Below, one piece after another: positions 2-54,538 of a stretch of 64,000 nucleotides of DNA. The notes under the pieces were generated by a model, which was given only the letters and a program-made list of their open reading frames with translations, had not been told where the DNA came from and searched no databases. The position numbers and the translations under genes were made by a program. The first letter of the stretch is position 1, and every line of letters starts with the position of its first letter. The DNA is from Gemmatimonadota bacterium (GTDB taxonomy: Bacteria; Gemmatimonadota; Gemmatimonadetes; Gemmatimonadales; GWC2-71-9), in assembly GCA_029863245.1 (NCBI GenBank), contig JAOTVV010000003.1:175359-239358 (forward strand), in the 5' to 3' direction.

Positions 2-229
2 GATCAGGGCAGGTTCTGCCACGGACCGCTCACCCGCGCCGGCTGCCGGGCCCGTTGCCCGTCCTACGCCGTCCCGTGCGTGGGATGCCGGGGGCCCGTA
101 CCCGATCCGAACCTGGGATCGGCGATGGACGTCTACACATCCAAGGGGTGGTCGCCTGAGGAGGTGGTCCAGCGGCTCCGTACGTTCGGTCCGCTGCCCA
201 CCCCCGTTCCGGCAGGGGAGGCGGCATGA
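2..229 (+). CDS. [NiFe] hydrogenase small subunit, C-terminal part (truncated by window edge)
   Basis: Frame reads DQGRFCHGPLTRAGCRARCPSYAVPCVGCRGPVPDPN...GEAA*, a Cys-rich Fe-S cluster ligand pattern; stop overlaps the ATG of the large subunit (ATGA). Confidence 0.75.
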   Translation, partial: DQGRFCHGPLTRAGCRARCPSYAVPCVGCRGPVPDPNLGSAMDVYTSKGWSPEEVVQRLRTFGPLPTPVPAGEAA

Positions 230-1539: not shown

Positions 1540-1937
1540 CCCCAAGGAAGACGGTTCTCGTGATCGACGACGACGCGGACTTCCAGATGTCGGTCGGATC
1601 GCTGCTGGAGGTCGAGGGCTACGACGTCGTCGCGGCGGCGTCCGGCCGGGAGGGACTGCGCAAGCTGCTGGAGGTGCGTCCCGACGTCGTGCTGCTCGAC
1701 GTCATGATGGAGAGCACCACCGAGGGCTACGGCGTGAGTGAGCGGATCAAGTACGGCGAGGAGTATGCCGCCGTCCGCGACGTCCCGGTCCTGATGGTCT
1801 CCTCGATCCAGGAGTCGCCCGACGAGCGGTTCCCGCGGTCACCAGAGGTCGAGATGATCCGGCCTGACCGCTACCTCACGAAGCCGCTCGACATCCCGCG
1901 CTTCCTGGAGATCCTCGCCAAGGCGGCGCGCCGGTAG
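1536..1937 (+). CDS. Single-domain response regulator (receiver only)
   Basis: VLVIDDDADF, LLDVMM, LTKPLD receiver motifs; start overlaps the hydrogenase stop. Confidence 0.9.
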   Translation: MTPRKTVLVIDDDADFQMSVGSLLEVEGYDVVAAASGREGLRKLLEVRPDVVLLDVMMESTTEGYGVSERIKYGEEYAAVRDVPVLMVSSIQESPDERFPRSPEVEMIRPDRYLTKPLDIPRFLEILAKAARR

Positions 1938-1964
1938 GATCGCGCCGCCCCAGGGAGGTACCTG

Positions 1965-3101
1965 ATGACCGAGCAGGACGTACACGACACCATAGTCGTC
2001 ATCGACGACGACTATGCGATGCGGCTCTCCTGCGAGCAGATCCTCGGCAAAAGCGGGTACGGCGTTCGGAGCTACGAGGACGGCGCCCGCGGACTCGAGG
2101 GCGTCGCGGAGTTGAAGCCGTCGCTCGTCGTCGTCGACCTCAAGATGCCCGGCCTGTCGGGGATCGAGGTCATCCCCCGCATCCACGAGATCGACCCCGG
2201 CATCGTCATCGTCGTCATCACCGGCTATGCCACGATCGGCACGGCCGTCGACGCCATGAAGGCCGGGGCGTACGACTTCCTTCCCAAGCCGTTCTCGCCG
2301 GACGAGCTCAGGCTGATCGTACGCCGCGGGCTCGAGCGCCGCCGCTTGGTGGCGGAGTCGCAACAGGCCGAGATCGAACGCGAGCTGATGAAGCGCCGGT
2401 TCGTCACCTTCGTCTCCCATCAGCTCAAGACCCCCCTCGTCGCCGTGCACCAGTTCCTGGAGGTGCTGCAGCGCCTCGGCGACAACGCCGACGCGAGTGC
2501 GAAGCGGCGCGAGTGGACCGAGCGCTGCCTCGTCCGCACCACGGAGATGAGGACGCTGATCAACAACTGGCTCACCCTGTCGCAGCTCGGGGGGGGCACG
2601 CTGTCGCGGCACCGGGTCGACCTCGATGTGCGGGAGCTGCTCGCGCACGTCGTGGGCGAGCATGCGGAATCCGCGGCGCGGCAGGACATCCGGCTGGAGC
2701 TGACGCCGGGAGTGCCGCTGCCGGTGCATGGGGACCGCACGTGCCTCAGCGTGCTGTTCGAGAACCTCATCGCCAACGCCGTGAAGTACAACCGCCCCGG
2801 CGGTAGCGTGCGCGTCGAGGGGACGGTCGACAGCGGCGAGGTCGTCGTCGCGGTGACCGACACCGGGCTCGGGATCCCGGCCGGCGATCTCCCGTACCTG
2901 TTCGACGAGTTCTACCGCGTGCGGCGCTCGGGCGACGAGACCCTCACCGGCACCGGCCTCGGCCTTCCCATCTCCCGGCGGGTCGCACTCGAGATGGGTG
3001 GGGCGATCGAGGTCGAGAGCACCGAAGGTGCCGGGTCCACGTTCCGCGTGCGCCTGCCGAGCTGTCCGGCGCCCTCCTCCAAAACGGAGCCGATCCGATG
3101 A
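1965..3101 (+). CDS. Hybrid protein: N-terminal receiver plus histidine kinase (HisKA/HATPase)
   Basis: VVIDDDYAM...VVVDLKMPG...PKPFSPDEL receiver; FVSHQLKTPL H-box; TDTGLGIP and GTGLGLPIS ATPase boxes. Confidence 0.92.
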   Translation: MTEQDVHDTIVVIDDDYAMRLSCEQILGKSGYGVRSYEDGARGLEGVAELKPSLVVVDLKMPGLSGIEVIPRIHEIDPGIVIVVITGYATIGTAVDAMKAGAYDFLPKPFSPDELRLIVRRGLERRRLVAESQQAEIERELMKRRFVTFVSHQLKTPLVAVHQFLEVLQRLGDNADASAKRREWTERCLVRTTEMRTLINNWLTLSQLGGGTLSRHRVDLDVRELLAHVVGEHAESAARQDIRLELTPGVPLPVHGDRTCLSVLFENLIANAVKYNRPGGSVRVEGTVDSGEVVVAVTDTGLGIPAGDLPYLFDEFYRVRRSGDETLTGTGLGLPISRRVALEMGGAIEVESTEGAGSTFRVRLPSCPAPSSKTEPIR

Positions 3102-3490
3102 CGCGTGGCTACCGCATCCTGATTGTGGACGACGACGCGGACTACGTCGCCGCCGTCGGCGCCTATCTCGAGGCCAACGGCTTCACCGTCGTCACGGCGG
3201 CCAACGGACAGGAGGGGCTCCGGATGGCCGCGCGGCACCGCCCGGCACTGATCATCATGGACGTGATGATGGGCGATCGGACGGAGGGACTCTTCGCCGT
3301 GAACGAGCTGCGGCGGCTGCCCGGGCTGGAACGAACGCCGATCATCGTGGCGAGTGCTCTGTACACCACGGAGCCCGAGTTCACGGTGCCCCCCGAGGCG
3401 GAGTGGCTCGCTGGCGCCACCTTCCTGGGGAAGCCGGTGGATCTCTCCGTGCTGCTGGAGCGCATCAACACGCTGCTCGACATGGGCTGA
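3098..3490 (+). CDS. Single-domain response regulator (receiver only)
   Basis: ILIVDDDADY, IIMDVMM, LGKPVD; ATGA overlap with the upstream kinase. Confidence 0.9.
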   Translation: MTRGYRILIVDDDADYVAAVGAYLEANGFTVVTAANGQEGLRMAARHRPALIIMDVMMGDRTEGLFAVNELRRLPGLERTPIIVASALYTTEPEFTVPPEAEWLAGATFLGKPVDLSVLLERINTLLDMG

Positions 3491-3501
3491 CCGGGACCGC
3501 G

Positions 3502-5505
3502 ATGCCGCTCGACGAGACGCTGCGCCGCCTGTCGCTCAAGACCCGCCTGATCATCAGCTACCTGGTGATCCTGGCGGTCGGCGGGCTCGTCACCTCGATC
3601 GTCGGGTCCTGGATCGTCAGCACGACGATCATGCGCCAGGCGCAGCGCACGGCCGAGCACGACCTCGCGACCGCCCGCATCATCTTCCAGGACCGCGTCG
3701 CATCGATCGGCCGCACCGTCCAGCTCGCGGTCACCGGGGCGGGCGTCGTCGACTGCGCGGTCCGGGGTGAGTGCGCCTCGGCGGGCAACCACCTCACCGG
3801 CGTCCGCGGCGAGACGTTGCTGGACTTCCTCACGATCGCCGACGCGCGCGGCGTGGTCCGGCTGCGCACGGCGCCGACGCGTGGCGTCGGCGACACGGTG
3901 ACAGTTCTGCCGCTCGTGCGGGAGGCGCTCGCCGGCGACGTCGTGGCCTCCTCCGAGATCCTCACCGCGGACCAGCTGGAACGCGAGGCGCCCGACCTCG
4001 GCGGCCAGGTGCGCATGCGCCTCGTGGAGACGCCACGGGCAGTGCCAGGGCGTGATACCGTCCTCTCGTCGGGCCTCGTGATGATCGCAGCGGGACCCAT
4101 CCGGGACGCCGGCGGTCGCGTTGTCGGAACCCTGTACGGCGGAGTCCTGGTGAACGGGCGCGAGGAGATGGTGGACCGCGTGTGGGAGCTGCTCTATCGC
4201 GGGGAGACCCATCGCGGCAAGCAGATCGGGACGGTCACCGTCTTCCAGGGCGACGTGCGCGTCGCGACCAACGTGCGTACCGCGGACGGGGCCCGAGCCC
4301 TGGGCACCCGCGTGTCCGCCCCGGTCCACGACGCCGTGCTGCTGCGCGGGGAGCGGTGGAGCAACCGGGCCTTCGTGGTGCAGGACTGGTATCTCAGCGT
4401 ATACGAGCCGCTCCGGAACCACCGGAACGAGATAGTCGGCATGCTCTACGTCGGTGTGCTCGAGAGCCGGTTCACGGCGATCCGCAACCGCGTGATCCTC
4501 TCCTTCTTCGGGATCGCGACGACCGGGTTCATCCTGATCATCGCGATCACCTACGTGATGATCCGCAACATCACGCGCCCGATCGGCGAGATGGTGGCCG
4601 CCACCAGGAACATCAGCGCCGGACGCCTGGACCAGGAAATTCAGGCAACCGCCCAGGGCGAGGTGGCGCTCCTCGCCGAGTCGTTCAACACGATGGCGAA
4701 GAGCCTGCGGCACATGAAGGACGATCTCGAGGAGTGGGGCCGGACCCTCGAGGAGAAGGTCAAGGAGCGCACCGACGAACTGGTGCGGATGCAGGCGCGC
4801 GTGGCGCAGTCGGAGCGGCTCGCGTCGCTGGGGATGCTGGCCGCCGGTGTGGCACACGAGATCAACAACCCGCTCGGCGGCATTCTCGCCCTGGCCGCCC
4901 TGACCGTGGAGGACCTGCCCGAGGGTCACGCCAATCGGCCGAACCTCGAGGAGGTCGTGCGGCAGGCGGAGCGGTGCCGCACCATCGTCCGGGGTTTGCT
5001 GGAGTTCTCACGGCAGTCCGAACTACACATGGAGGTGGTGGATCTCAACCGAGTGCTCGACGACACGCTCGCCCTGATCGCCAAGCAGGCGGCGTTCTTC
5101 AACGTTGAGCTGGTGCGCCACCAGGCAGATGGCCTGCCGCCAATTGCGGCGGATCAGTCGCAACTCTCCCAGGTGATCCTCAACCTCGTCGTGAACGCGG
5201 TCCAGGCGATGGAGGAGCGCGGCACCCTCACCATCGCGACGCGCTATGACCCTGCGCACGATGCGGTCGAGATGGCATTCACGGACACCGGCCGCGGGAT
5301 CGCGCCCGAGGATGTCGGCCGCGTGTTCGACCCCTTCTTCACGACCAAGACGAACGGGCAGGGGACTGGCCTGGGACTCTCGATCGCCTACGGCATCGTC
5401 ACACGCCACCACGGCACCATCACCGTGGAGAGCGAGGTGGGCCGCGGTACCACCTTCCGGATCCGGCTGCCGGTGGGCGGAGCGGTGCCGGAGGCAGCGA
5501 CTTGA
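3502..5505 (+). CDS. Membrane sensor histidine kinase (Cache-like sensor, HAMP, HisKA, HATPase)
   Basis: Starts MPLDETLRRLSLKTRLIISYLVILAVGG; two TM segments, HAMP NITRPIGEM, AAGVAHEINNPLGG H-box, GTGLGLSIAYG. The listed longer ORF (2998) includes out-of-frame upstream sequence. Confidence 0.92.
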   Translation: MPLDETLRRLSLKTRLIISYLVILAVGGLVTSIVGSWIVSTTIMRQAQRTAEHDLATARIIFQDRVASIGRTVQLAVTGAGVVDCAVRGECASAGNHLTGVRGETLLDFLTIADARGVVRLRTAPTRGVGDTVTVLPLVREALAGDVVASSEILTADQLEREAPDLGGQVRMRLVETPRAVPGRDTVLSSGLVMIAAGPIRDAGGRVVGTLYGGVLVNGREEMVDRVWELLYRGETHRGKQIGTVTVFQGDVRVATNVRTADGARALGTRVSAPVHDAVLLRGERWSNRAFVVQDWYLSVYEPLRNHRNEIVGMLYVGVLESRFTAIRNRVILSFFGIATTGFILIIAITYVMIRNITRPIGEMVAATRNISAGRLDQEIQATAQGEVALLAESFNTMAKSLRHMKDDLEEWGRTLEEKVKERTDELVRMQARVAQSERLASLGMLAAGVAHEINNPLGGILALAALTVEDLPEGHANRPNLEEVVRQAERCRTIVRGLLEFSRQSELHMEVVDLNRVLDDTLALIAKQAAFFNVELVRHQADGLPPIAADQSQLSQVILNLVVNAVQAMEERGTLTIATRYDPAHDAVEMAFTDTGRGIAPEDVGRVFDPFFTTKTNGQGTGLGLSIAYGIVTRHHGTITVESEVGRGTTFRIRLPVGGAVPEAAT

Positions 5506-5984
5506 TGAGCGGGATCCTGATCCTCGGTGTGGGGAATCCACTGGCGGGTGACGACGGCATCGGAATGCACGTCGCCGAGGCGCTCATGGGAGACGACCGC
5601 CTGCCGCCCGCCACGGAGGTCCGTACCGCGGGGACCGATCTCCTGCGCCATGCCGATGCGATGCGGGGGCGCCGGCTCCTCGTCGTGCTCGACGCCATCC
5701 TCAGCGACGAGCCGCCCGGCACGCTCCAGGTACTCGACGGCGACCTGTCGGATCTCGATGCGTACCAAGGCCACGCGCATCACCTCTCGGTGGTGCAGGC
5801 ACTGGCGCTGCTGCGATCCGTCACGCCCGCTCTCGACGGCGTCGCCGTGATCGTGGCCGGTGTCACTGTCCCTGAGGTCCGGTCGGCGCACGGTCTGTCC
5901 GCCGCGCTGGCCGCCCTGGTGCCCCTGATTGCGGACGACGTGGTCGCGCTCGTGCGCGATCTTGCCGGCCCGGATCGCGCCTGA
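5502..5984 (+). CDS. Hydrogenase maturation protease (HycI/HyaD/HoxW-type)
   Basis: ILGVGNPLAGDDGIGMHVAEAL... canonical M52 peptidase start; ATGA overlap with the kinase. Confidence 0.92.
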   Translation: MMSGILILGVGNPLAGDDGIGMHVAEALMGDDRLPPATEVRTAGTDLLRHADAMRGRRLLVVLDAILSDEPPGTLQVLDGDLSDLDAYQGHAHHLSVVQALALLRSVTPALDGVAVIVAGVTVPEVRSAHGLSAALAALVPLIADDVVALVRDLAGPDRA

Positions 5985-6080
5985 GCGGGAACCGCCACTC
6001 GGGCACCCGCGAAAACACCACCGTCTCGTCGGTGAACTCCGTCGGCCGCGGCGCGCGGTTCCCGCGCCCGGAAGTGTGCG

Positions 6081-6147
6081 GCAACCACCCGACTTGCGTG
6101 GCTCAACCCGAGGTGACATAATGGCTGACAAGCGCGAATCTCGGCAC
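6081..6147 (+). repeat. 66-bp dispersed repeat, copy at the hypB 5' end
   Basis: Ungapped match (about 80% by eye) to 43662-43727. Confidence 0.8.
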
Positions 6148-6828
6148 GCCGAGCTCGGTGAGGTTGCCGGTGAGGTACACCGTGCCCGTCCCGTCCGGAA
6201 CCGTCGCGCGGATGGTGGCCGTGCAGCAGTCCCCCGCCGGCTGGCCGAGCACCGCGTCCCCGCGCTCCACCTCGTGTCCGGCCCCGGTGCGGGGAAGACC
6301 ATGCTACTGGAGCGCACCCTCGAAGCACTGGGAAAGGACTTGCGGCTCGCGGTGGTGACGGGGGACGTCCAGACGCAGAACGATGCCGACCGGCTGAGCC
6401 GATACACGGACCGGCTAGTGCAGGCCGTGGTGACCGGTGGTGCCTGTCACCTCGATGCCCGACAGATCCAGACCTCACTGGATGCCGTCGAGCTCGACCA
6501 GACCGACCTCCTATTCATCGAGAACGTCGGCAATCTGGTGTGTCCGGCGAGCTGGGACTTAGGCGAGACCGCGAAGGTCGTGCTGTGTGCGGTGACTGAA
6601 GGCGAAGACAAGCCAGCGAAATACCCCAAGATGTTTCGCGAGGCTCGGTACGTTGTGCTCACAAAAGTGGATCTTTTGCGGTTCGTGCCGTTCGAGCGCG
6701 ACAAGGCCGTCGCCATGGCGCGAGATGTGAACCCCGACCTCCAGTTCTTCTTCACTTCCGCCACGACCAAAGAGGGCTTGGATAGCTGGTTCGCGTTTCT
6801 TCGCGATCTGGTGGCGAAGGCGACGTGA
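6121..6828 (+). CDS. hypB: Hydrogenase nickel incorporation GTPase HypB with atypical N-terminus
   Basis: LHLVSGPGAGKTMLLERTL P-loop, VTGDVQTQNDADR, DLLFIENVGNLVCPASWDLGE, VLTKVDLL; followed directly by hypF. N-terminal ~40 aa appear non-native (see findings). Confidence 0.87.
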   Translation: MADKRESRHAELGEVAGEVHRARPVRNRRADGGRAAVPRRLAEHRVPALHLVSGPGAGKTMLLERTLEALGKDLRLAVVTGDVQTQNDADRLSRYTDRLVQAVVTGGACHLDARQIQTSLDAVELDQTDLLFIENVGNLVCPASWDLGETAKVVLCAVTEGEDKPAKYPKMFREARYVVLTKVDLLRFVPFERDKAVAMARDVNPDLQFFFTSATTKEGLDSWFAFLRDLVAKAT

Positions 6829-9137
6829 CGGCTGACGGTGCGGCTGGCGGTCGGGAGGCCGTCCATGTGAGCGTCACGGGGGTCGTGCAAGGGGTGGGGT
6901 TCCGCCCCTTCGTGCACCGACTCGCATTGCGCTACCGGCTTGGCGGGTGGGTGCGCAACGAGGCGGGCGAGGTGCGAATCGAGGTAGAGGGTCCGAGCAC
7001 CGACGTGCAGGCTTTTGTGAATGCCCTGCGGACCGAGGCGCCACCACTCACGCAGATCGACGCGCTCGAAATCACCCGGACCTCGGTCAAGCACTGGACC
7101 GAGTTCCGGATCGTCCCCAGTGAGGATCAACCGGACCGGCGGCAGCCAGTGTCGCCCGACGTCGCGCTGTGTGCCGCATGCGAGCGTGAGCTGTTCGATC
7201 CTGCCAATCGCCGGCATCGGTATCCCTTCGTGACGTGCACCGACTGCGGTCCCCGCTTCACCGTGATCGAGGCGATACCGTATGACCGCGCGCGCACCAG
7301 CATGCGCGTGTTCCAGCAGTGTGCCGAGTGCCTCCGCGAGTACGATGAGCCTGCCGACCGGCGGTACCACTCGGAGAGCAACAGCTGTCCCGTCTGTGGT
7401 CCCAAGGTATGGCTCGAGATTCCGGGGACGGAAGGTGCTGTGGAGGAGGGGCAGGCCGCCATCGAAGGCGCCGCTCACGCGCTTGGCACGGGCCGCATCG
7501 TGGCGATTCGTGGGCTAGGTGGATTCCATCTGGCCGTCGATGCCACGGACGAAGCCCCAGTGGTCCGGCTGCGGGAGCGAAAGGGACGTGAGGCCAAGCC
7601 GCTGGCGATCATGGTGCGGACGGTAGACGATGCCCTGCGACTCGGCACGGTCCGCGCGAGTGAGGAACCGTTGCTGACGTCTCGTGAGCGACCCATTGTC
7701 GTCATCAAACGCCGCCGATCGTCGCGACTCGCACCGTCGGTGGCACCCGGGCTCGACAGCGTTGGCGTGATGACCGCCTACACGCCGCTCCATCAAATCC
7801 TCTTGGATCTCGTGCAACGACCGCTCGTCATGACCAGTGGAAATGTGAGTGAAGAGCCGATCGCTACCTCGAATTCCGATGCTCGCGCGCGGCTCGGTGA
7901 CATCGCTGATGCGTTTCTGTTGCACGACCGTGAGATCGTGGCGCGCTACGACGACTCGGTCGTACGGGTGGTCGACGATGTTCCGTTGTTCCTGCGCCGC
8001 GCTCGAGGATACGCACCACTCCCGCTCGAGATCCCCATTGCCGCTCCGGTACCACTCGTGGCGGTGGGCCCGCATCTCAAGAACACGTTTACGGTCGTGC
8101 ATGGAAATACCGCGTACGTCAGTCAGCACATCGGCGACCTGGAGAACCTGGAGACACTCGCGCACTTCCAGGAATCGCTGGCTTTGTTTCGTCGCTTGTT
8201 CCGGATCGAGCCCCGTGTCGCTGTGCGGGACCTCCATCCCGGTTACCTGTCGACGCGTGTGGCGGACGAGCTGGGATTGGGGCAGGTGATGTCTGTGCAA
8301 CATCATCATGCGCACGTGACGGCGGTGATGGCGGAGCACGGTCGAACCGAGCGGGTGGTGGGGGTCGCGTACGACGGGACGGGGTACGGGCAGGATGGTG
8401 CCGTCTGGGGTGCGGAGACGCTCGCTGCCGATCTGTGCACGTACGAGCGGGCCGGCCAACTCCGCTACGCGCCACTTCCCGGCGGCGACCTCGCGGTGCG
8501 ACGCCCGTGGCGGGTGGCGCTGGGCTACCTGTCGCTCGAGCCGAGCGAGCGTGAGGCATTCGCAGCCGCGTTCGATGGCGTCGACGAGGCGGAGCGGGCC
8601 CTCGCTGAGCAACAGATCGCACGGGGGCTCAATGCCCCGCTCGCGTCCTCCATGGGGCGACTGTTTGACGCGGCCGCGGCGGTGCTCGGCACGAGACAAG
8701 TGGCCTACTACGAAGGACAGGCAGCCATGGAGCTCGAGGCGCTGGCCGGGGAACGGAATGCGGACCCGTTCCCGTTTCCTTTGGACGAGGAAGACGGCGC
8801 GGTGGTAATGAATCCGATTCCGCTGCTCGTGGCGTTAGGAGAACGCCGCCGGGCGGGAGACGATGTGCGTGATCTGGCCGCGAGGTTCCATGAGAGCATC
8901 GCGGCGGCTACCATTGAAGTTGCCCGTCGCGTGGCTGACGGGACGGGACTCTCGACGGTCGCGCTGGGTGGGGGGGTGTTCCAGAACGCACGGCTCCTTG
9001 CAGCCGTGCAGCGCGGTCTCGAAGAAAGCATTCTCGAGGTGCTGGTGCCCCGACGGCTCAGCCCGAACGACGGGAGCATCAGCTACGGACAGGCGGCCTC
9101 GGCCGCCGCGCTTCTCGCGCGAGAGGGTTCATCCTGA
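6825..9137 (+). CDS. hypF: Carbamoyltransferase HypF
   Basis: Acylphosphatase domain VSVTGVVQGVGFRPFVHRLA, two zinc fingers (CAACERELFD, CTDCGPRFT), YrdC domain, C-terminal GVAYDGTGYGQDGAVWGAE. Confidence 0.97.
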   Translation: MTADGAAGGREAVHVSVTGVVQGVGFRPFVHRLALRYRLGGWVRNEAGEVRIEVEGPSTDVQAFVNALRTEAPPLTQIDALEITRTSVKHWTEFRIVPSEDQPDRRQPVSPDVALCAACERELFDPANRRHRYPFVTCTDCGPRFTVIEAIPYDRARTSMRVFQQCAECLREYDEPADRRYHSESNSCPVCGPKVWLEIPGTEGAVEEGQAAIEGAAHALGTGRIVAIRGLGGFHLAVDATDEAPVVRLRERKGREAKPLAIMVRTVDDALRLGTVRASEEPLLTSRERPIVVIKRRRSSRLAPSVAPGLDSVGVMTAYTPLHQILLDLVQRPLVMTSGNVSEEPIATSNSDARARLGDIADAFLLHDREIVARYDDSVVRVVDDVPLFLRRARGYAPLPLEIPIAAPVPLVAVGPHLKNTFTVVHGNTAYVSQHIGDLENLETLAHFQESLALFRRLFRIEPRVAVRDLHPGYLSTRVADELGLGQVMSVQHHHAHVTAVMAEHGRTERVVGVAYDGTGYGQDGAVWGAETLAADLCTYERAGQLRYAPLPGGDLAVRRPWRVALGYLSLEPSEREAFAAAFDGVDEAERALAEQQIARGLNAPLASSMGRLFDAAAAVLGTRQVAYYEGQAAMELEALAGERNADPFPFPLDEEDGAVVMNPIPLLVALGERRRAGDDVRDLAARFHESIAAATIEVARRVADGTGLSTVALGGGVFQNARLLAAVQRGLEESILEVLVPRRLSPNDGSISYGQAASAAALLAREGSS

Positions 9138-9150
9138 GGCGGTGTAGCGT

Positions 9151-9447
9151 ATGTGTCTAGGCATTCCGGGACGGATTACGGAGATTCGCGACGACGGCGG
9201 ACTGCGCATGGGCACGATCGACTTCGGCGGGGTCCGACGTGAGGTCTGCTTGGCCTACCTCGACGAAGACATCGCGGTGGGTGACTACGCCATCATCCAC
9301 GTGGGGTTCGCGATTTCGAAGGTCGATGAAGACGAAGCGAAGCGGACGTTTGAAGTGTTGAAGGAATTGAGCCAACTGGACGAGCTCGAGTGGATCGGCG
9401 AGGTCGCCGATAGCAGCCTCGAGCAACACGGCTCGGAGAGTGCGTGA
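9151..9447 (+). CDS. hypC: Hydrogenase assembly chaperone HypC/HupF
   Basis: [10 protein letters not shown]-terminal signature. Confidence 0.95.
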
Positions 9448-10547
9448 AATACCTCAGTGAATACCGCGACGGCGGTATCGCGCAGAAGCTAGCGCGGAAC
9501 ATCCAGGAAGCGGCGTCGCGCCGCTGGGTGCTGATGGAGGTGTGCGGTGGACAGACGCACACCATCGTCAAGCAAGGGATCGATGAGCTGCTGGGCGAGG
9601 CCGTGGAGATGATCCACGGGCCGGGATGCCCCGTGTGCGTCACGCCGCTCGAGCAGATCGACCGCGCTCTGTATTTGGCCGCTCAGCCCAATGTGATCTT
9701 CACGTCCTTTGGTGACATGCTGCGCGTGCCCGGCAGCGAGTGCGATCTGTTCCAGATCCGCGCTCGCGGTGGAGACGTGCGAATCGTGTACTCGCCGCTC
9801 GACGCGCTGGAGCTGGCACGGAAGAACCCCGATAAGGAAATCGTGTTCTTCGCCGTCGGATTCGAGACCACCGCACCGGCCAATGCGATGGCCGTGTGGC
9901 GTGCGCACGAGCTCGGCGTCACGAATTTCAGTGTCTTGGTCTCCCACGTCACGGTGCCACCAGCGATCGTGGCGCTCCTGGAATCGTCCGACAATCGGGT
10001 CGAGGCATTCCTCGCCGCCGGTCACGTCTGCACGGTGATGGGGTGGGAGGAGTACGAGCCGCTCGCGGCGACGTATCGGGTGCCCATTGTGGTGACGGGG
10101 TTCGAGCCCGTCGACATCCTCGAGGGTATCCTGATGGCCGTGCAGCAACTCGAGGCCGGACGCTACGAGGTGGAGAACCAGTATGTGCGCTCCGTGAAAC
10201 GCGAAGGTAATCGACTGGCGCAGGAATTCGTGCGCAAGGTCTTCCGGTTGGTCGACCGTCAGTGGCGGGGGATCGGCATGATCCCCGCGAGCGGGTTGGG
10301 CTTGCAGGAGGAGTTCGTCCAACATGATGCGGAGGCCAAGTTTGGCGCCTCGGTGATCACGGCCACGGAACCCGAGGAGTGCCGTGCGGGCGATGTCCTG
10401 CGCGGTAAGATCAAACCGCACGAGTGTGATGCATTCGGAAAGCTGTGCACACCCGAGCGTCCACTGGGTGCCTCGATGGTGTCGTCCGAGGGGGCCTGTG
10501 GCGCGTACTACAACTACGGTCGCTTCCGCAACGTGGCCGCTTCGTGA
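9444..10547 (+). CDS. hypD: Hydrogenase formation protein HypD
   Basis: [53 protein letters not shown]. Confidence 0.97.
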
Positions 10548-11605
10548 GTTTGACCGACCTCTCCCAGGGGCCGATCTGCCCGGTTCCTCGCAGCAATTAT
10601 CAGCAGGTCCAGCTCGGCCACGGCTCCGGTGGCAAGATGAGCGCGGCGCTGCTGCGTGAGCGGTTTCTCCCACATTTCGAGAACGAAGCGCTGGCGCAGT
10701 TGGGCGACGCCGCGGTGGTTAGTGTGACATCCGACCGACTCGCCATCTCCACCGACACGTTCGTGGTGCAGCCGCTCGAGTTTCCCGGCGGCAACATCGG
10801 CACGTTGGCCGTGCATGGCACCCTCAACGATCTGGCCATGATGGGGGCGCGCCCCCGCTACCTCTCGGCTGGCTTCGTGCTCGAGGAAGGACTGGCGTTC
10901 GACGTCTTGGATCGGATCGTGGCGGCCATGGCGAGGGCGGCACGCGAGGCGGGTGTGCCTGTCGTCACGGGTGACACCAAAGTGGTCGAGCGCGGCAAGG
11001 CGGACGGGGTGTTTATCAACACGACGGGGGTGGGAGAGCTCGATGCGGCGTTCCTACCGGCGCCGAAGAGCGCTCGAGTGGGCGACGTGGTGATCGTGAG
11101 CGGGCCGATCGGCCGGCACGGCATCGCGGTGATGGCGGTTCGGGAAGGGCTCGAGTTCGAAGTCGAACTGGAGAGCGATTCGGCCAACCTCGCACCGCTG
11201 GTCGAACGCCTGAGAGAGACGGTCGGGTCCGCCGTCCACGTACTGCGTGACCCGACGCGTGGCGGACTGGCGAGTGCCCTCAACGAGATTGCGGCGGCCG
11301 CTCGCGTAGGCATCGACCTCGAGGAAACCGCGATACCGATCCCGCCTCCTGTCACCGCCGCCTGTGAGATGCTGGGATTCGATCCGCTGTATGTCGCGAA
11401 CGAGGGGATCTTCGTGGCGCTCGTTGACGCCTCGCTGGCGGAGCAGGCTCTCGCGGCCGTGCGGGGCCACCCCTTGGGCGCCCATGCCACGGCGATCGGA
11501 CGCGTGGTGAGCGAGCATCCCGGGATCGTCGCGCTCAAGACGCGGATCGGTGGCACGCGAGTCGTGGACATGCTGCCCGGAGATCAGCTGCCCAGGATCT
11601 GTTAG
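10544..11605 (+). CDS. hypE: Hydrogenase expression/formation protein HypE
   Basis: [30 protein letters not shown] start overlapping the hypD stop; C-terminus lacks the usual PRIC tail only by wording (ends PRIC). Confidence 0.95.
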
Positions 11606-43741: not shown

Positions 43742-43912
43742 ATGGATCGTGACGACAACGCACCGGACCGAGTGCGGAACGAGCAGCGGGATCGGAAACC
43801 GTGGGTCCCACCCGAACTGCGAGACCTGCCCAAACTCACGGATCTCACGTTACAAACCGGTAGTCCTATCGGCGGCACCGGCAACCCAGGCACAGGCAGC
43901 ACCGTCTTCTGA
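43742..43912 (+). CDS. Short RiPP-precursor-like peptide A (56 aa), below the supplied ORF length cutoff
   Basis: MDRDDNAPDRVRNEQRDRKPWVPPELRDLPKLTDLTLQTGSPIGGTGNPGTGSTVF*; shares the C-terminal half with the peptide at 54365-54538. Confidence 0.82.
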   Translation: MDRDDNAPDRVRNEQRDRKPWVPPELRDLPKLTDLTLQTGSPIGGTGNPGTGSTVF

Positions 43913-44031: not shown

Positions 44032-45858
44032 ATGCGCGGCACACCACGGACCACAGTTTACCCCATCATTTTCCTCATGTTGCTCGTCGCGGCTGCGGCG
44101 TGCGTGGACGGCATACCCGTGACCTCTCCGGAGGAAGTGACAAAAGAGGAAGTCACTGAACCTGCAGGCAACCCGAGTGTCGTCGCGTCGGTGACCTGCA
44201 CCGCGAACGTGACGGCGGGCGAGCTCTCGTGCGGGAAGGTCCCGGTGGTGGACATTGAGACGGGGGTGCAGCGCATCATTGTCGGCGGCCAGGGTATGTT
44301 TGTCGAGCTTTTTTCGCCTCAGCCCTTCGTGTCTTACAACCCCACTACCCAGATCTTCCAGGCTGACGTCTACCTTGAGAACTACATCACCCAGGGGCTG
44401 GGCAGCGCTGACGGGCTCACGACGACGGGGATCCGAGTCTTCACGCACAGCGGACCCACCGTGACGAGTACAACTCCACCTGGGGGAACTGCGACTGTCA
44501 CGGTGGCCAACGCCGACGGCACAGGGACCTTCACCGGCGCGAACCAACCATTCCACCTCTACGACCAGTACCTACCCGCGGCTGACCCACCTTCTATTTT
44601 TTACCCTACCGACACCCTGACCTGGCAGTGGAACGTCCCCACTAACGTCAACACGTTCGTGTTCGAGGTCTTCGTCGACGCCGATGTCGTGAACCCGAAC
44701 GGTTACGTGCTGATGTCTCCCGGGTCGCTCTTGATGTCGGTCGGGGGAGGAACCCAAACGGTGACCGGCACGCCTGCCGATGTTGTGGGGCGGGGCGTTA
44801 TAACCACTGTTACCTACTCGAGCTCCGACCCGACGATCGCAAACGTCAATTCGAGCACCGGCGAGGTCACGGCGGTGAACGCGGGGATCGTCGACATCAT
44901 CGGCACGACCGGCGGGCCGGAAGCGGATGGCAGGACGAGAGTCACCATCGACCCGCCCACCGCAGGCTTCGATATCGATCTACACTTCATCACGCCTGTC
45001 TCTGCGACCCAAGCGGCGGCGTTCACCGCCGCCGCGGCACGGTGGGGAGGGCTGATCACGGGTGACCTCGCTACTGAGCAGGTTGACATTCCCATCATCT
45101 TGTGCGGGGGGCTGGTCGACGAGCATGTGGACGATCTCGCGATCAACGTGCTGCTCGACAGTATTGACGGTCCTGGCGACTTCCTCGCCTTTGCGGGCCC
45201 CTGCTGGTTCCGACCCACTGGCGCTGGCGGGCTGCCCGCGTTTGGGTTCATGGTGTTCGACACCGCTGACGTGGCCGGCTTGGAGGCGGACGGCCGGCTT
45301 GACGACCTGGTGGCGCACGAGATGGGACATGTGCTGGGTATCGGCACCTTGTGGGACAACGGACTGCTGAACGACGAGACTGGCCCCCTGACGTCGGACG
45401 AGTGCTTCCCCGGTGGGGAAGATCCGCCGCCCCCGCTCATGACTGACCCGTTCTTTTCTGGCCCACAGGCGACTACCGCCTTCAACAACAATGGTGGCGG
45501 TGCCTACACTGGAAACAGGGTGCCGGTCGAGAACGACTTTGGCCCCGGGTCACGGTGCGTACACTGGCGTGAGTCGGTCACGCCCACCGAACTGATGACC
45601 CCCATCATTGAGGCGCCCGCGATCGCGATGCCGCTGAGTGAGATGACGGTGAAATCGCTGGCTGACTTGGGCTACATGGTGGCGACCTCGGGCTGGGACA
45701 CGTGCCTGTACCCGACGTGCGCTCCGCCGGCCGGAGTGGTTGCGCTCGATGCCGCGGTCGGCAGGCTGGAACTGGTCAATGATGTGTGGCTTGGGCCGAT
45801 CTACTCGCGGGACGAACAGGGGCAAATCATCGTGGTTGTGCCGGACAGGCGGCGCTAA
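44032..45858 (+). CDS. Secreted lipoprotein with Ig-like region and M8/leishmanolysin-like zinc metalloprotease domain
   Basis: Lipobox LLLVAAAAC; Ig-like DVVGRGVITTVTYSSSDPTIANVNSSTGEVTAVNAG; LVAHEMGHVLGIGTLWDN; VHWRESVTPTELMTPII. Confidence 0.87.
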   Translation: MRGTPRTTVYPIIFLMLLVAAAACVDGIPVTSPEEVTKEEVTEPAGNPSVVASVTCTANVTAGELSCGKVPVVDIETGVQRIIVGGQGMFVELFSPQPFVSYNPTTQIFQADVYLENYITQGLGSADGLTTTGIRVFTHSGPTVTSTTPPGGTATVTVANADGTGTFTGANQPFHLYDQYLPAADPPSIFYPTDTLTWQWNVPTNVNTFVFEVFVDADVVNPNGYVLMSPGSLLMSVGGGTQTVTGTPADVVGRGVITTVTYSSSDPTIANVNSSTGEVTAVNAGIVDIIGTTGGPEADGRTRVTIDPPTAGFDIDLHFITPVSATQAAAFTAAAARWGGLITGDLATEQVDIPIILCGGLVDEHVDDLAINVLLDSIDGPGDFLAFAGPCWFRPTGAGGLPAFGFMVFDTADVAGLEADGRLDDLVAHEMGHVLGIGTLWDNGLLNDETGPLTSDECFPGGEDPPPPLMTDPFFSGPQATTAFNNNGGGAYTGNRVPVENDFGPGSRCVHWRESVTPTELMTPIIEAPAIAMPLSEMTVKSLADLGYMVATSGWDTCLYPTCAPPAGVVALDAAVGRLELVNDVWLGPIYSRDEQGQIIVVVPDRRR

Positions 45859-48866: not shown

Positions 48867-51800
48867 TTACGGAACCTGGCATTCCTCAAGCCCGTGCATT
48901 GCGATACGATGGTACGGGGGCAACCCGAGGCTGACCAGCCAACGCAGGATATACACCGCGTCTGTGCCCGTCATTGCGGCATCCCGATCGACATCACACA
49001 TGGCAACATCACAGGTCGGGCAGATAGGCAAGCTGACGAGATCTCTGAGACACTGCACTGCATCAGCAGCGCCGACCGCTCCATCATGTGTGACGTCACC
49101 AAAGGCGTATTCACTCACGCCGACGTTCACATTTGACCACTCCACGAGGGATAGCAGATCCTCCCCCAGCTCCCCACTCAGCTCGGTGACGTCTTTCGCT
49201 ATTGAAACGCAGGCGTCGGGCTGCAGAGCTGGATCGGATTGCAGTTGCAGGGTCAGCAGCGTAACCCTTGGCACGCCCACCGCGTCGGTGCGTGCTCCCG
49301 TACAGGGCAAGGTCCCCTGAGTGCCAGCGTCGGCGTCGTTGCAGAGGAAGGTCCCTCCGAAGTCGCCTTCCTCCACAGCGACGTACGTCATGTCAGCCGG
49401 GCTCCAGGATATCTCCTCTACAAAGGCGGCTACCGGCAGATTGCTGTCATCCTTGCTGTACAGGATCTGCGGCAGCTTGAATGGCTCCCCGTGCATCGCA
49501 CGTGGATCCCCGACGCCGGGATAGTCCGCAGTGCTCATGTCCTCTGGCGCGAACCGCGCGACGTAAAGGGCCTGACCGGCTGGATGCGGCAGAGGCCCGT
49601 CGTTAACGGGGTAGGTATAGAACTCGCCGAACCCGTCCGACGCGCCCGACAAGAACATCAGAGCACCTTCGGTCAAAGCGAGGCCGAATAGGTTATAGAA
49701 TCCAGGCGCAAGTGCCAGCTGGGTCGCGGTCGAGGTGAGATCGGGATCGATACTCCACACCCTGCCGGTGTCGTCGGTGAAGTAGACGATTCCCGACCGA
49801 CCCACTGCCACCGCCTGAACATCATACACACTGGACGCGAGCGTGGTGCTGCTCCCGTCATCCAGAGAAACCTTGGTCAATCCGTAGTTAGAGAGGTTGT
49901 TCGCTACGTACACCGAGTTGTCTTGTGGTCTGTAGGCCACTCCTCCGACGCAGGATGGCAGGCTGGTAGAGATCGGATCTTCCGCGCTTCCATCCAGCGG
50001 GATTCTGTATACCTGCCCTGAGTTCAAACATCTCGACGACCCGAACAAGTCGTTTTGGGGACCCCACGTAAGCCAGAAGACCCCCCCGTCGGGCAGCACC
50101 TTGAAATCGGACACAGTCCCATCCGGCGTGACTCGTCTCACCGTCCAAGCGAAATCGCGGATGCCAACGTACCAATTCCCATCTTCACCGAGCGCGACAC
50201 CACCCGGGGATCCTATTCCTGTGGCGATGGGGGCGCCCACAGTGCCGTCCGGCGATATCGGGATCAAGCTCCCTCCGTTGTCCCGCGTCGCGACCATCAC
50301 GCTTGGGGGTCCATTCCGTGTGTCACCTGTGGCCATACCCCAGGCGTAATCGTGGCCGCTGGAAATGATCGCCATACCTTCGGAGTACACGTAGAACCCC
50401 AGCTCCACTATCTGATTCTGCAGCCAGCCGTCGGCTGCCTGGAATTGGATGCTTCCGAAGTTCCACTCCTCAGGAACGCCGGTCGGATTCAAGGTCACCT
50501 CGACCGAAGTTTCCTGAAGGTCATTGGTCAGTCTCGGCGAATCCAGCTTCCCACGAGCTGCGGCCTTCACCCATGCTAGGAGGGGCTCGGCTAGCCGCTC
50601 GTCCGACAGCTCGTAGTCACCGGTGCCGAGCAGACCCCTGACGAACGCGGAACTAAGGGGACGCGCGACAGCCGGGTCGACGCCGCTGACTTCGGATTGC
50701 TCCACAACTCCGGTCTCTTGTCCAACAACTCCGGTCTCTTCCCTAACCTCAGGGATACTGAAATCCTCGAGCGTAATCAGCTCACCCGTCTGACTCGCCG
50801 TCCCTGAGGTGGGGTCAATAGTGATCCAGCTCTCGGATGGCGACCCAGTCCACGCAACCGTCCCGAGGCCAGTGAGGTCAAAGACTGTGAGTGGGGTGCT
50901 GAGGCTGCTTCCGTTCTGCTCACCTCGAGTCACGAACCCCCACCAGGAGAATCCTAAGATCGCCGCCGCCGGCCGGGCTTTCAGCAGGTAGCCTCCCCCA
51001 AAAGCATCGGCCCAGGCACCCACTTCAACGACGTAGTCGCCCGTCTCCGGTAGATAGACCCTGTACACCAGCGCCTGGAAGCCCAGCCCGGCGTATGGTG
51101 CCATATCGTTCCAGTCCAACAGCGTTTCCCCGTCGGGCTTGTAGACCCGAACCACTGGATCGATCAACGCTGGCGATGCCGAATAGTCGGTCAGCACTGC
51201 CACGTCGATTTCTTGCCCTGCTGTTCCACTTAGCAAGTACCGCACGCGCTCACCAACAGGGAGCATGCCGGCCGTCGTAATGGCCGCATCGAGAGCGATT
51301 CGCGGAGCGACTGCGAGCCGTACACGCATGGTCACGGGCGAGTTGGCTGCGTTCCCACTAATTGTCACAAAACCGGTGTAGAAGCCGGTGCCGAGTCCAG
51401 AGGGATTCGCAACGACATCGAACTGATCAGGTGTGACATCGCTCGCGCTGCCCGACGCTGGATTCAGTGTGATCCACGTGGCGTCGTCCGTCGCCGTCCA
51501 GTCGATCGTCCCCGCGGCGCCGACGTTCCGGATCTCCACCGGCGCTGTGATCGACGCTCCTCCTGGCTCTGCCGCCAGCGTGACTTCCATCGGATCAACG
51601 GAGAGTGCGAAACTGCCTGAGGCAACCGCGGCGACCGCAGCCCCCGCATCTACGACACCATACCCGCTCTCCCAATCGAATCCCGACGCTTCGATGTCCT
51701 GTGCCGTACTCCGCAGTATCTGCCGTACCTGATCCACGGTGAGATCGGGCCGTGCTGCGCGCACCAGGGCCGCCACGCCGGCGACGTGTGGCGACGCCAT

Positions 51801-52916
51801 CGAGGTCCCGTTCTTTGTACCATATCCCCCTCCACCAAGCGTGCTGTACACACCAACTCCGGGGGCCGCGAGTTCGATCTCAGGTCCGGTGTTCGAGAAC
51901 GAGGCCACATTGTCAGACTGGTAGATGGCGGCGACGGCGATCGCATACGGCTGCGCTGCTGGGAACCCGACCTGCCCGCTGAGGAGTTGCCCTTCGTTAC
52001 CAGCGGACGCGACCGGAAACACGCCTGCTGAGTACGCGGCGAACAGCGCATCACCCCGGGCGAAACTGGGGTACAGGCCGCCGAAACTCATGTTAATAAC
52101 GTCCAGGTCGTTCGTAGTCGCCCATTCAATTCCCAAGATGCTGTGGGACCGAAGCACGCTGCAGGTGGTGAGTCCGGCGTTCTCAGGATCGAACACACGA
52201 AGCGCATAGAGGTCCACCTCGGGTGCCACGCCAACCACGCCGATCGTGTTGTCCAGCGCGGCAACGGTTCCAGCGACGTGTGTACCGTGGGTGGAGGAAC
52301 AAATAGCCGAGTTATCGTCCCAATCACTCCGTGTCGTTCCCCCGGTGACGAGGTTTATTCCTCCGATCGGGTTGAGATCGGGATGATCCTCATCGATACC
52401 CGTGTCGAGGATGCCTACCGACACGCCCGATCCCTTGGTAAACGACCATGCGGACGATGCACCGACCCGCGTAATGCCCCACGGCGTCGTTTGCGCCGTG
52501 GGCTCGTCCAGGTGATCTGGCTCGACGTAATCAATGTTGGGATTTGCCAGTAGCTCTTCCAACCGGTCAGGATCGATGATGGCTGCGACAGCCGGGATGA
52601 TCTGGTACTGGATCGTCACCTCCACACCCAGCGGTGCCAGCGACACTGCCAACTGTGCAACTGCATTCGGAGCCAGCGCTGAGGTCCCGTCCGAACGCAT
52701 CCCTTGCCCCGCGTCCACTGGCTTGAAGCCGATGATCACGCGTCCGTTGAGCTCTCGAATCTGGGTCTTGATCGTTGCGATCTCTTGTGGGGTTAGGCCG
52801 GCTTGTCGCCCTGGCCGTTCCTGTTGCGACCACAGATCGCTCGGCAGCGAGATAAGCAGCAGTATGAGAATTCCCGCGAGACCGTAACGCCGCACGTCCG
52901 GCTCCCTCGCAAACAT
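48867..52916 (-). CDS. Large secreted S8 subtilase with C-terminal dockerin
   Basis: Catalytic motifs GILDTGIDEDHPDL, STHGTHVAGTVA, NGTSMASPHVAGVAAL; terminal duplicated GDVTHDGAVGAADAVQCLRDLVSLP ... CDVDRDAAMTGTDAVYILRWLVSLG dockerin type I repeats. Confidence 0.93.
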   Translation of the reverse strand: MFAREPDVRRYGLAGILILLLISLPSDLWSQQERPGRQAGLTPQEIATIKTQIRELNGRVIIGFKPVDAGQGMRSDGTSALAPNAVAQLAVSLAPLGVEVTIQYQIIPAVAAIIDPDRLEELLANPNIDYVEPDHLDEPTAQTTPWGITRVGASSAWSFTKGSGVSVGILDTGIDEDHPDLNPIGGINLVTGGTTRSDWDDNSAICSSTHGTHVAGTVAALDNTIGVVGVAPEVDLYALRVFDPENAGLTTCSVLRSHSILGIEWATTNDLDVINMSFGGLYPSFARGDALFAAYSAGVFPVASAGNEGQLLSGQVGFPAAQPYAIAVAAIYQSDNVASFSNTGPEIELAAPGVGVYSTLGGGGYGTKNGTSMASPHVAGVAALVRAARPDLTVDQVRQILRSTAQDIEASGFDWESGYGVVDAGAAVAAVASGSFALSVDPMEVTLAAEPGGASITAPVEIRNVGAAGTIDWTATDDATWITLNPASGSASDVTPDQFDVVANPSGLGTGFYTGFVTISGNAANSPVTMRVRLAVAPRIALDAAITTAGMLPVGERVRYLLSGTAGQEIDVAVLTDYSASPALIDPVVRVYKPDGETLLDWNDMAPYAGLGFQALVYRVYLPETGDYVVEVGAWADAFGGGYLLKARPAAAILGFSWWGFVTRGEQNGSSLSTPLTVFDLTGLGTVAWTGSPSESWITIDPTSGTASQTGELITLEDFSIPEVREETGVVGQETGVVEQSEVSGVDPAVARPLSSAFVRGLLGTGDYELSDERLAEPLLAWVKAAARGKLDSPRLTNDLQETSVEVTLNPTGVPEEWNFGSIQFQAADGWLQNQIVELGFYVYSEGMAIISSGHDYAWGMATGDTRNGPPSVMVATRDNGGSLIPISPDGTVGAPIATGIGSPGGVALGEDGNWYVGIRDFAWTVRRVTPDGTVSDFKVLPDGGVFWLTWGPQNDLFGSSRCLNSGQVYRIPLDGSAEDPISTSLPSCVGGVAYRPQDNSVYVANNLSNYGLTKVSLDDGSSTTLASSVYDVQAVAVGRSGIVYFTDDTGRVWSIDPDLTSTATQLALAPGFYNLFGLALTEGALMFLSGASDGFGEFYTYPVNDGPLPHPAGQALYVARFAPEDMSTADYPGVGDPRAMHGEPFKLPQILYSKDDSNLPVAAFVEEISWSPADMTYVAVEEGDFGGTFLCNDADAGTQGTLPCTGARTDAVGVPRVTLLTLQLQSDPALQPDACVSIAKDVTELSGELGEDLLSLVEWSNVNVGVSEYAFGDVTHDGAVGAADAVQCLRDLVSLPICPTCDVAMCDVDRDAAMTGTDAVYILRWLVSLGLPPYHRIAMHGLEECQVP

Positions 52917-53021: not shown

Positions 53022-54302
53022 TCACGGCGTGACCACGCAGACATTCACAGGCTCGGTTATGATGATCGCGCGCTCCAATAGATTGATAGACTCGAAGGTC
53101 ACTGGGTCTATTGCTGTCAGTTCGGTTAGGGTTGGAGTGAAGTCAGAACATCCTTCGCTCAGGCCCTGGACGCTGAACGTCAGGGCATCGAGCACGTCGC
53201 CCGTTAATCCGGCCGCTGAGATTGCCGAGAACTTGAGCGTACCGGCGGGAGTCTCGTTCGAGAAGAGCAGGTCCCAGATGGTCCCTGCCGCATCATCGAG
53301 ATAGTCGAGGAGCGACCCAGTCCAGGTCACGTCACCAACCATCGAAGTCAGCGGTTCCGAGATCTGCGTGACATCCAGCTGCAGCGCAATATCCGACGTG
53401 CCGCCCACCGATGGACTCACGGGGGCTGCCAGGGTGCGGACGTAGACGACCGGCTTCACCGTCACCGTCACACAACCGTCAGCTTCCGGCCCGGAGCTGC
53501 TCGCGCAGACGGTGCTCGTCCCCTCTGCAACACCGCTGACCTCTCCCGTCCCGGGATCCACGTCGGCAACGCCCGGCACCAAGCTCGACCACGTCACCGT
53601 CCGACCGGTCACCGGCCGACCGATGCGATCGCGGACCACCGCGTCGAGCGTCTCTGTCAGCCCGATTCCCACCACCGGCTGCTCCGGGCTGACGTCCACC
53701 CAGCCGTCGTCATACTGGACGTTCGCCCAGACGTACACGGCGAAGTTGAAGGTCAAGACGCTCGACGGCACGTTCCACCGCCACATCATGGGAGACGAGA
53801 TATCGTCGGTGTCTAGCATCTCGTCATACTGAAAGTACGGCTGTTCGGTCAAGATAAACGTCGCTGTACCAGACGCGTTGGCTACGGTCACGATGCCGTC
53901 CCCACCAGTCACGCTCGGGCCCTCATGGAAGAACACGCGAACGCCCTCGGGATCGAGGGTCGTGCCATCGGTAGTTCCGAGGGCCTGCCCAATCAGGTTC
54001 TGCACCGTGACGTCTGCCTGAAACACGGCGGAGCCGTCGTAGCTCACGTTGTCGGAGGCCAGCCGCACATGGGGATTTCCAACGATGACCGAGAGCGAGA
54101 GCCCTGGCACCGGGTCGCTCTGAAGGCCCTGGCACAAGACTGTGCCGGCCGCCACCTCCGCGCGACACGCAATCACCTGTGGCAGCGGAGCTGTGTCTTC
54201 AGTCGGGGCCGTCGGGATGGTGGGGTCGTCGCACGCCCCTGCGAGGAGGATAGCGACCAAAGGAGTGATCGTTCGAGTCAGGAACTGCAGTGTACGTGGC
54301 AT
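53022..54302 (-). CDS. Secreted lipoprotein with Ig-like (BIg2) domain and C-terminal cohesin-like domain
   Basis: Lipobox AILLAGAC; TWSSLVPGVADVDPGTGEVSGVAEGTSTV; SVGGTSDIALQLDVT...GTLKFSAISAAGLTGDVLDALTFSVQG. Confidence 0.82.
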   Translation of the reverse strand: MPRTLQFLTRTITPLVAILLAGACDDPTIPTAPTEDTAPLPQVIACRAEVAAGTVLCQGLQSDPVPGLSLSVIVGNPHVRLASDNVSYDGSAVFQADVTVQNLIGQALGTTDGTTLDPEGVRVFFHEGPSVTGGDGIVTVANASGTATFILTEQPYFQYDEMLDTDDISSPMMWRWNVPSSVLTFNFAVYVWANVQYDDGWVDVSPEQPVVGIGLTETLDAVVRDRIGRPVTGRTVTWSSLVPGVADVDPGTGEVSGVAEGTSTVCASSSGPEADGCVTVTVKPVVYVRTLAAPVSPSVGGTSDIALQLDVTQISEPLTSMVGDVTWTGSLLDYLDDAAGTIWDLLFSNETPAGTLKFSAISAAGLTGDVLDALTFSVQGLSEGCSDFTPTLTELTAIDPVTFESINLLERAIIITEPVNVCVVTP

Positions 54303-54364: not shown

Positions 54365-54538
54365 CTAGAACACGGTGCTGCCGCCCGTATCGCCTCCCCC
54401 ACCTATTGGGCTACCGGTCTGCAAGGTGAGGTCGGTCAAACGGGGCAGATCGGTAATCTGCGGTTTGGTCCAGCGCTTCTTCTCAGTTGGCGGTAAGTCA
54501 GCGTTCGGTCCGGGATTGGGTGCGGTGCGACCGTCCAT
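54365..54538 (-). CDS. Short RiPP-precursor-like peptide B (57 aa)
   Basis: MDGRTAPNPGPNADLPPTEKKRWTKPQITDLPRLTDLTLQTGSPIGGGGDTGGSTVF*; paralog of peptide A; upstream GAGGAGG. Confidence 0.85.
   Translation of the reverse strand: MDGRTAPNPGPNADLPPTEKKRWTKPQITDLPRLTDLTLQTGSPIGGGGDTGGSTVF

Follow-up and report, generated by a model that had tools for sequence, protein, structure and literature searches.

The short peptides A and B of the window, the whole 64,000-nucleotide stretch of Gemmatimonadota DNA analysed here, are likely precursors of a RiPP family that combines a lasso-type leader and lasso-type processing proteins with an rSAM enzyme in the place of the cyclase; A and B themselves would be matured in trans. 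Judged from its sequences, the precursor family is real and conserved, is not an orphan, and is a RiPP variant. The two precursor ORFs are as follows.

43742..43912, + strand: precursor ORF of peptide A, 56 aa, start ATG, Shine-Dalgarno sequence GGGAGG upstream.
54365..54538, - strand: precursor ORF of peptide B, 57 aa, start ATG at 54538, stop at 54365, Shine-Dalgarno sequence GAGGAGG.

The 56-codon ORF of peptide A translates as given in the preliminary description, with a Shine-Dalgarno sequence just 5′ of it. Peptide B, described there as an independent ORF, exists but is encoded on the minus strand, with the translation MDGRTAPNPGPNADLPPTEKKRWTKPQITDLPRLTDLTLQTGSPIGGGGDTGGSTVF; the plus strand at these positions reads otherwise. 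A search of the source genome with the tail of A retrieves, besides A itself, B and an additional copy on contig C14 (E = 4.4e-12), and the C-terminal likeness of A and B is far beyond chance (E = 3.7e-12), with N-terminal parts that diverge as had been reported. In the leader block, A and B differ with a pS of 0.82, at which synonymous sites are near saturation, and a pN of 0.32. Because pS is near saturation and pN is limited, A and B do not stem from a recent DNA duplication, and their protein sequence is under constraint; across all leader pairs, pN is smaller than pS in 757 of 780. Lack of such constraint and lack of homologues had been named as grounds for rejecting the family, but protein-level constraint is found between the copies, and about 40 homologues occur across Gemmatimonadota. 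A third possibility, that the conserved tail is the 3′ end of a larger gene, is ruled out, as A, B, and the C14 copy are stand-alone ORFs with ribosome-binding sites. Searches of Pfam (with A), NCBIfam (with A, B, and the precursors of C14 and genome G017), and PHROGs (with A and B) returned no match to the precursors, and scans for promoters and terminators found about as many as expected by chance. Elsewhere in the window, translations read from positions 226-11605 include an ORF resembling the large subunit of NiFe-hydrogenase and HypB-, HypF-, HypD-, and HypE-like maturation genes.

A profile built from five sequences was used to search 395 Gemmatimonadota genomes, and precursors were found in 18 of them at E < 1e-7. 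The fetched loci, searched again, yielded 42 precursor hits, or 40 after removal of duplicate loci. The leader aligns without a gap across the 42 hits and consists of basic residues, W(-17)xxP(-14)x[VIL](-12), L(-9)P(-8)R, and L(-6)T[DE]L(-3)T(-2)L(-1), followed by [QA]TG. L(-9), L(-3), T(-2), and L(-1) are conserved in all 42 hits, and W(-17) and P(-14) are conserved in 41. Lasso leaders carry YxxPxL at positions -17 to -12 and a Thr at -2 (Duan et al., PMC10368454). When the Trp of the Gemmatimonadota precursors is placed at -17, their invariant Thr falls exactly at -2, such that both elements of the lasso leader are present, with Trp in place of Tyr. Bacillota precursors of paeninodin-type lasso peptides use WxxP likewise (PMC13381572). 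This gap-free leader in the lasso register supports the original suggestion of a RiPP precursor with a lasso/RRE-type leader. The other suggestion, a secreted tag, finds no support: no signal peptide is seen by eye, and the leader is of lasso type with a predicted cleavage site. The register places the following elements in A and B.

43802..43819, + strand: predicted RRE-binding motif of A, W(-17)VPP(-14)EL(-12), from the alignment and the published lasso register.
43853..43909, + strand: predicted core of A, QTGSPIGGTGNPGTGSTVF, 19 aa, with cleavage after L(-1) predicted from the T(-2) register.
54368..54421, - strand: predicted core of B, QTGSPIGGGGDTGGSTVF, 18 aa, from the alignment, with cleavage likewise predicted.

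The family as a whole displays what is expected of RiPP precursors, namely a conserved leader, a variable core, and a modifying enzyme next door, whereas A and B have no adjacent enzyme. In other genera, the recurring gene order is precursor, rSAM, one or more lipoproteins, a PD40 protein, PqqD, B2, and an HprK-like protein. An rSAM gene lies at most 500 bp downstream of 16 of the 40 precursors, separated by 17-105 bp in all but one case. With close rSAM enzymes defined at E < 1e-60 and with incomplete assemblies, the precursor and the close rSAM each occur in 18 of the 395 genomes, 15 of which have both, three only the one, and three only the other (Fisher p ~1e-21, phylogeny ignored). The genomes with precursors and no close rSAM at this threshold are G199, G238, and G378, all from incomplete assemblies. 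Genome G079, counted as having only the rSAM, contains a divergent precursor recognized by eye (L091:9694-9939, beginning RRPWVAPALTRHASLTALTLQYPP). Motif and sequence searches of the retrieved precursor loci gave no protein of the Asn-synthetase family, to which the lasso cyclase belongs.

The maturation genes of the source organism are found outside the window. The preliminary description saw no cyclase, B-protein, or modifying enzyme in the window, which holds there and fails for the genome, where a search for lasso/RRE enzymes finds them on contigs C14 and C34. On C14, the third precursor copy is followed after ~15 bp by an rSAM gene and then by a lipoprotein. On C34, the order is a second rSAM, an NTP-transferase on the opposite strand, an HprK-like kinase, B2, PqqD, and a PD40-like protein, with the PqqD gene directly adjoining that of the Transglut_core3 protein (B2). 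All parts of the system are thus encoded in this genome, divided between two loci, together with three precursors. The label "orphan family" is wrong on a genome-wide view, because this genome alone encodes two rSAM enzymes, a B1-like RRE, a B2-type protease, an HprK-like kinase, and an NTP-transferase; in addition, precursor homologues stand directly upstream of rSAM genes in many genomes. Past the lipoprotein on C14 lies a truncated PD40 gene (L024:13180-13686), which shares 63% identity with the PD40 gene of C34 over 67 aa and suggests that a single ancestral cluster has been split or partly lost.

The processing proteins resemble those of lasso biosynthesis. The B2 protein of C34 scores 49.7 bits and passes the 33-bit cut-off of the NCBIfam lasso_biosyn_B2 model. 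The neighboring PqqD scores 61.6 bits, just under the NCBIfam lasso cut-off of 70, and the best PDB match of the PqqD family profile is the lasso B1 protein TbiB1 (2e-20). A B1-type RRE and a B2 protease are therefore both present, the PqqD slightly below lasso cut-offs. The rSAM protein is a stand-alone enzyme of 335 residues that contains a CxxxCxxC motif and five further invariant cysteines. Its structural model (pLDDT 86) resembles PqqE, SkfB, SuiB, and a sactipeptide maturase. The CxxxCxxC motif, the C-terminal cluster cysteines, and the PqqE/SuiB-like fold are together those of an rSAM-SPASM peptide maturase. The best NCBIfam model is ScmF, with scores of 76-79 against a cut-off of 400 bits, and matches to the PqqE and mycofactocin maturase profiles are weak.

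The same gene set allows for a different main chemistry. The published linear polyphosphorylated peptides (LPP) are encoded with an RRE, HprK, an NTP-transferase, and a SipW-like peptidase, with no lasso cyclase and no mention of an rSAM (PMC13381572), and an LPP-like pathway, in which HprK-like phosphorylation and the NTP-transferase provide the main modification and the rSAM a secondary tailoring step, would account for several features of the Gemmatimonadota loci. HprK-like or NTP-transferase genes are present in several clusters, the cores are rich in Ser and Thr, and both the C34 locus and G017 contain the LPP set of RRE, HprK-like kinase, and NTP-transferase without a cyclase, the HprK assignment being weak. 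This explanation is nevertheless unlikely: the rSAM is the gene most tightly linked to the precursor, the HprK-like assignments have weak scores, and the annotated cluster genes include B2 and, by their annotation, no SipW-like peptidase. Nor does an MsbA-like exporter appear among the genes annotated.

The isolated position of A and B could also mean that they are vestigial or unused satellite copies of a real family and stay unprocessed in this organism. No enzyme genes lie near either peptide, and the PD40 remnant on C14 suggests that an ancestral cluster decayed or was split. The sequences themselves make such disuse improbable. The leader and core of A and B are as conserved as in enzyme-linked copies, neither the ORFs nor the ribosome-binding sites are disrupted, pN stays well under pS, and each retains an intact lipoprotein. 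Since the 500 bp downstream of the precursor contain no rSAM gene in 24 of the 40 cases, including those of A and B, we infer processing in trans rather than read it from gene order.

The predicted cores differ from those of lasso peptides. They are mostly 15-22 aa in length with 36% Gly (40 precursors), begin at the leader boundary L(-1)|[QA], and end mostly in [ST][ST]V[FI]. None of the 40 starts with Gly, an acid occupies +8 in one, and Asp or Glu is found at +7 to +9 in 10; A and the C14 peptide have no acid at +7 to +9. The Asp or Glu at positions 7-9 and the usual Gly1 of lasso cores are therefore mostly missing, and by their sequence most cores cannot form a lasso ring. True lasso peptides with a cyclase encoded elsewhere in the genome would explain the lasso-type leader, RRE, B2, HprK-like kinase, and NTP-transferase, and the source genome does contain two full Asn-synthetase-family genes. 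One of these passes the AsnB cut-off and falls far short of that for the lasso cyclase; the second (L173, C59:2-808, at a contig end) adjoins a NodU-like carbamoyltransferase, with no lasso context within the contig. On the core and cyclase tests, combined with the lack of a cyclase in every retrieved locus, a lasso peptide with an unlinked cyclase is rejected as highly improbable. Cys is present in four of the 40 cores and in none of the A, B, and C14 peptides, such that the Cys-containing core expected of a sactipeptide or ranthipeptide, in which an rSAM forms a thioether, is not found. A redox cofactor pathway like those of PQQ and mycofactocin, with no peptide product, would share the logic of rSAM, PqqD, and protease and would fit the weak PqqE and mycofactocin profile matches, but it is very hard to credit given that core length and sequence vary between paralogues, Tyr is rare, and there are several precursors per genome.

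For precursors matured by an rSAM in place of the cyclase, the following sequence of steps can be proposed. The discrete B1-like PqqD/RRE protein would bind W(-17)xxPx[VIL](-12) of the leader and present the core to the rSAM-SPASM-type enzyme, a stand-alone protein that lacks an RRE. The rSAM would then modify the Gly/Ser/Thr-rich core, whose ends, [QA]TG and [ST]TV[FI], are conserved. As in the paeninodin and LPP systems, the HprK-like kinase and the NTP-transferase, where present, may add phosphate or other groups to Ser/Thr. Finally, the B2 protease, which has a transglutaminase fold, would cut after T(-2)-L(-1) to release a peptide of mostly 15-22 residues with no lasso ring. A and B, which have no enzymes of their own, would be satellite precursors, and the C14 and C34 loci would provide for their maturation in trans.

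The neighbors of A and B are lipoproteins.

44032..45858, + strand: lipoprotein downstream of A, 608 aa, with lipobox, lipoN domain, Big_2, and a weak leishmanolysin-like region with HEMGH; Shine-Dalgarno sequence GGAGG.
53022..54302, - strand: lipoprotein downstream of B, 426 aa, with lipobox, lipoN domain, and Big_2.
48867..52916, - strand: subtilase (S8) with BACON domains, encoded directly after the B lipoprotein in the same orientation, of uncertain membership in the unit.

The lipoprotein follows A after 119 bp and B after 62 bp, and a third follows the C14 precursor and rSAM. All three contain a lipobox and share an N-terminal domain of ~170 aa, lipoN, and their C-terminal parts differ. 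The lipoN domain has two invariant cysteines and an all-β model (pLDDT 81). A fold search of the PDB was uninformative, with a best match of E = 8e-4 and a TM score of 0.37, followed by CBM-like β-sandwiches with low scores, and nothing below 1e-3 was found in a viral library. At the search threshold, the source genome encodes three lipoN proteins, each paired with one of its three precursors. The reported tie to adjacent secreted proteins is therefore borne out in all three cases in this genome, where the neighbors are lipoproteins, and does not extend to the many precursors in the large genomes of family f6 that have no lipoN neighbor. Among the Gemmatimonadota genomes, lipoN is present in 16 of the 18 with precursors and in a further 17 with no detected precursor, and the large genomes of f6 contain many satellite precursors with no lipoN nearby; for these reasons the pairing is strong in the lineage of the source organism and is no rule. 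As three precursors each lie upstream of a lipoprotein of a single family, the mature peptide probably acts jointly with the downstream surface lipoprotein. Two further groups of secreted or secreted-looking products were observed. Secreted proteins with SDILLR(L/M)RSGSP near the N terminus are found inside f6 clusters (L062:13765-16063, L066:10093-11241, and L067:6249-7379), and those scanned contain a Peptidase_S74 chaperone and YadA-head repeats. At L077:3577-3804 and 3876-4103, two short secreted-looking, Cys-containing peptides (beginning MKLRLAYLIQAVLAVLVAGGLSFGASRAMA), unrelated to the precursors, are arranged in tandem.

The rSAM profile also finds relatives outside the phylum. Among the matches listed, relatives at 28-35% identity occur in at least Acidobacteriota, anammox planctomycetes, a Byssovorax, and other bacteria, a distribution that is a lower bound. 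Most of the listed distant relatives adjoin PqqD, and several also adjoin B2. Upstream, small ORFs carrying a lasso-like motif, for example RKPFAEPKLTFIEPKLTKHGDATRITHQSNGFFSAFVP in Brocadia, were assigned by eye as candidate precursors. In anammox planctomycetes, Acidobacteriota, and Byssovorax, small ORFs with lasso-like [FY]xxPx[LIV] leaders were noted in the vicinity of rSAM and PqqD genes, and the anammox candidates share a GFF-containing end.

Candidate wider-class precursor ORFs, by eye: L098:8753-8944, L104:4803-4991, L105:8753-8926, L096:809-1063, L102:3915-4088, and L100:9731-9910.

Whether all of these belong to a distinct RiPP class is a question on which we are evenly balanced. 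Such a class would be defined by a lasso leader, a B1 RRE, and a B2 protease that serve an rSAM enzyme, would occur in Gemmatimonadota and, distantly, in Acidobacteriota, anammox planctomycetes, and Myxococcota, and would in its Gemmatimonadota members act as a pair with a dedicated downstream surface lipoprotein, with scattered satellite precursor-lipoprotein pairs matured in trans. If true, the lasso leader-processing module of RRE and B2 would be an exchangeable platform for different core chemistries. The family would offer a defined enzyme set and about 40 natural substrates, with Gly/Ser/Thr-rich and mostly Cys-free cores, for seeking a possibly new rSAM reaction, and it raises the testable question of a RiPP encoded together with surface lipoproteins. 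Gemmatimonadota is a poorly cultured phylum, and little RiPP work on it is described in the literature searched. No description of the combination of rSAM with B1 and B2 as a family was found in that literature, which covers subscription journals thinly.

Comparison with known systems places the family between several of them. Similar to PQQ, mycofactocin, StsB/StsC, SynChlorMet, and GeoRSP, it has a stand-alone rSAM with SPASM-type C-terminal cysteines and a discrete PqqD, but the rSAM scores far below the cut-offs of all of those models. To our knowledge, a B2 protease and the lasso register are not part of those five systems. With paeninodin-type lasso peptides, it shares the leader register W/Y(-17)xxP(-14)x[LVI](-12)...T(-2), the discrete B1-type RRE, the B2 protease, and the HprK-like kinase and NTP-transferase genes. 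The Gemmatimonadota loci differ in having an rSAM and no Asn-synthetase-like cyclase, and the core starts with Gln or Ala rather than Gly, is Gly-rich, and mostly lacks the ring acid. RRE-Finder noted, as off-class hits of its discrete lasso RRE model, about 300 RREs located near rSAM enzymes (PMC7470986). These may include relatives of the Gemmatimonadota family; the passages on them describe no precursor family, leader register, or B2/HprK set and do not name Gemmatimonadota. The nearest published family is LPP (Nat Commun 2026, PMC13381572). Both have an RRE, an HprK-like kinase, an NTP-transferase, a lasso-like leader, one to several precursors, and no cyclase. LPP systems, from Bacillota hosts, have a SipW-like peptidase, an MsbA-like exporter, and a YxxPxVLxHQ motif; the Gemmatimonadota family has a B2 protease, WxxP, and an rSAM enzyme.
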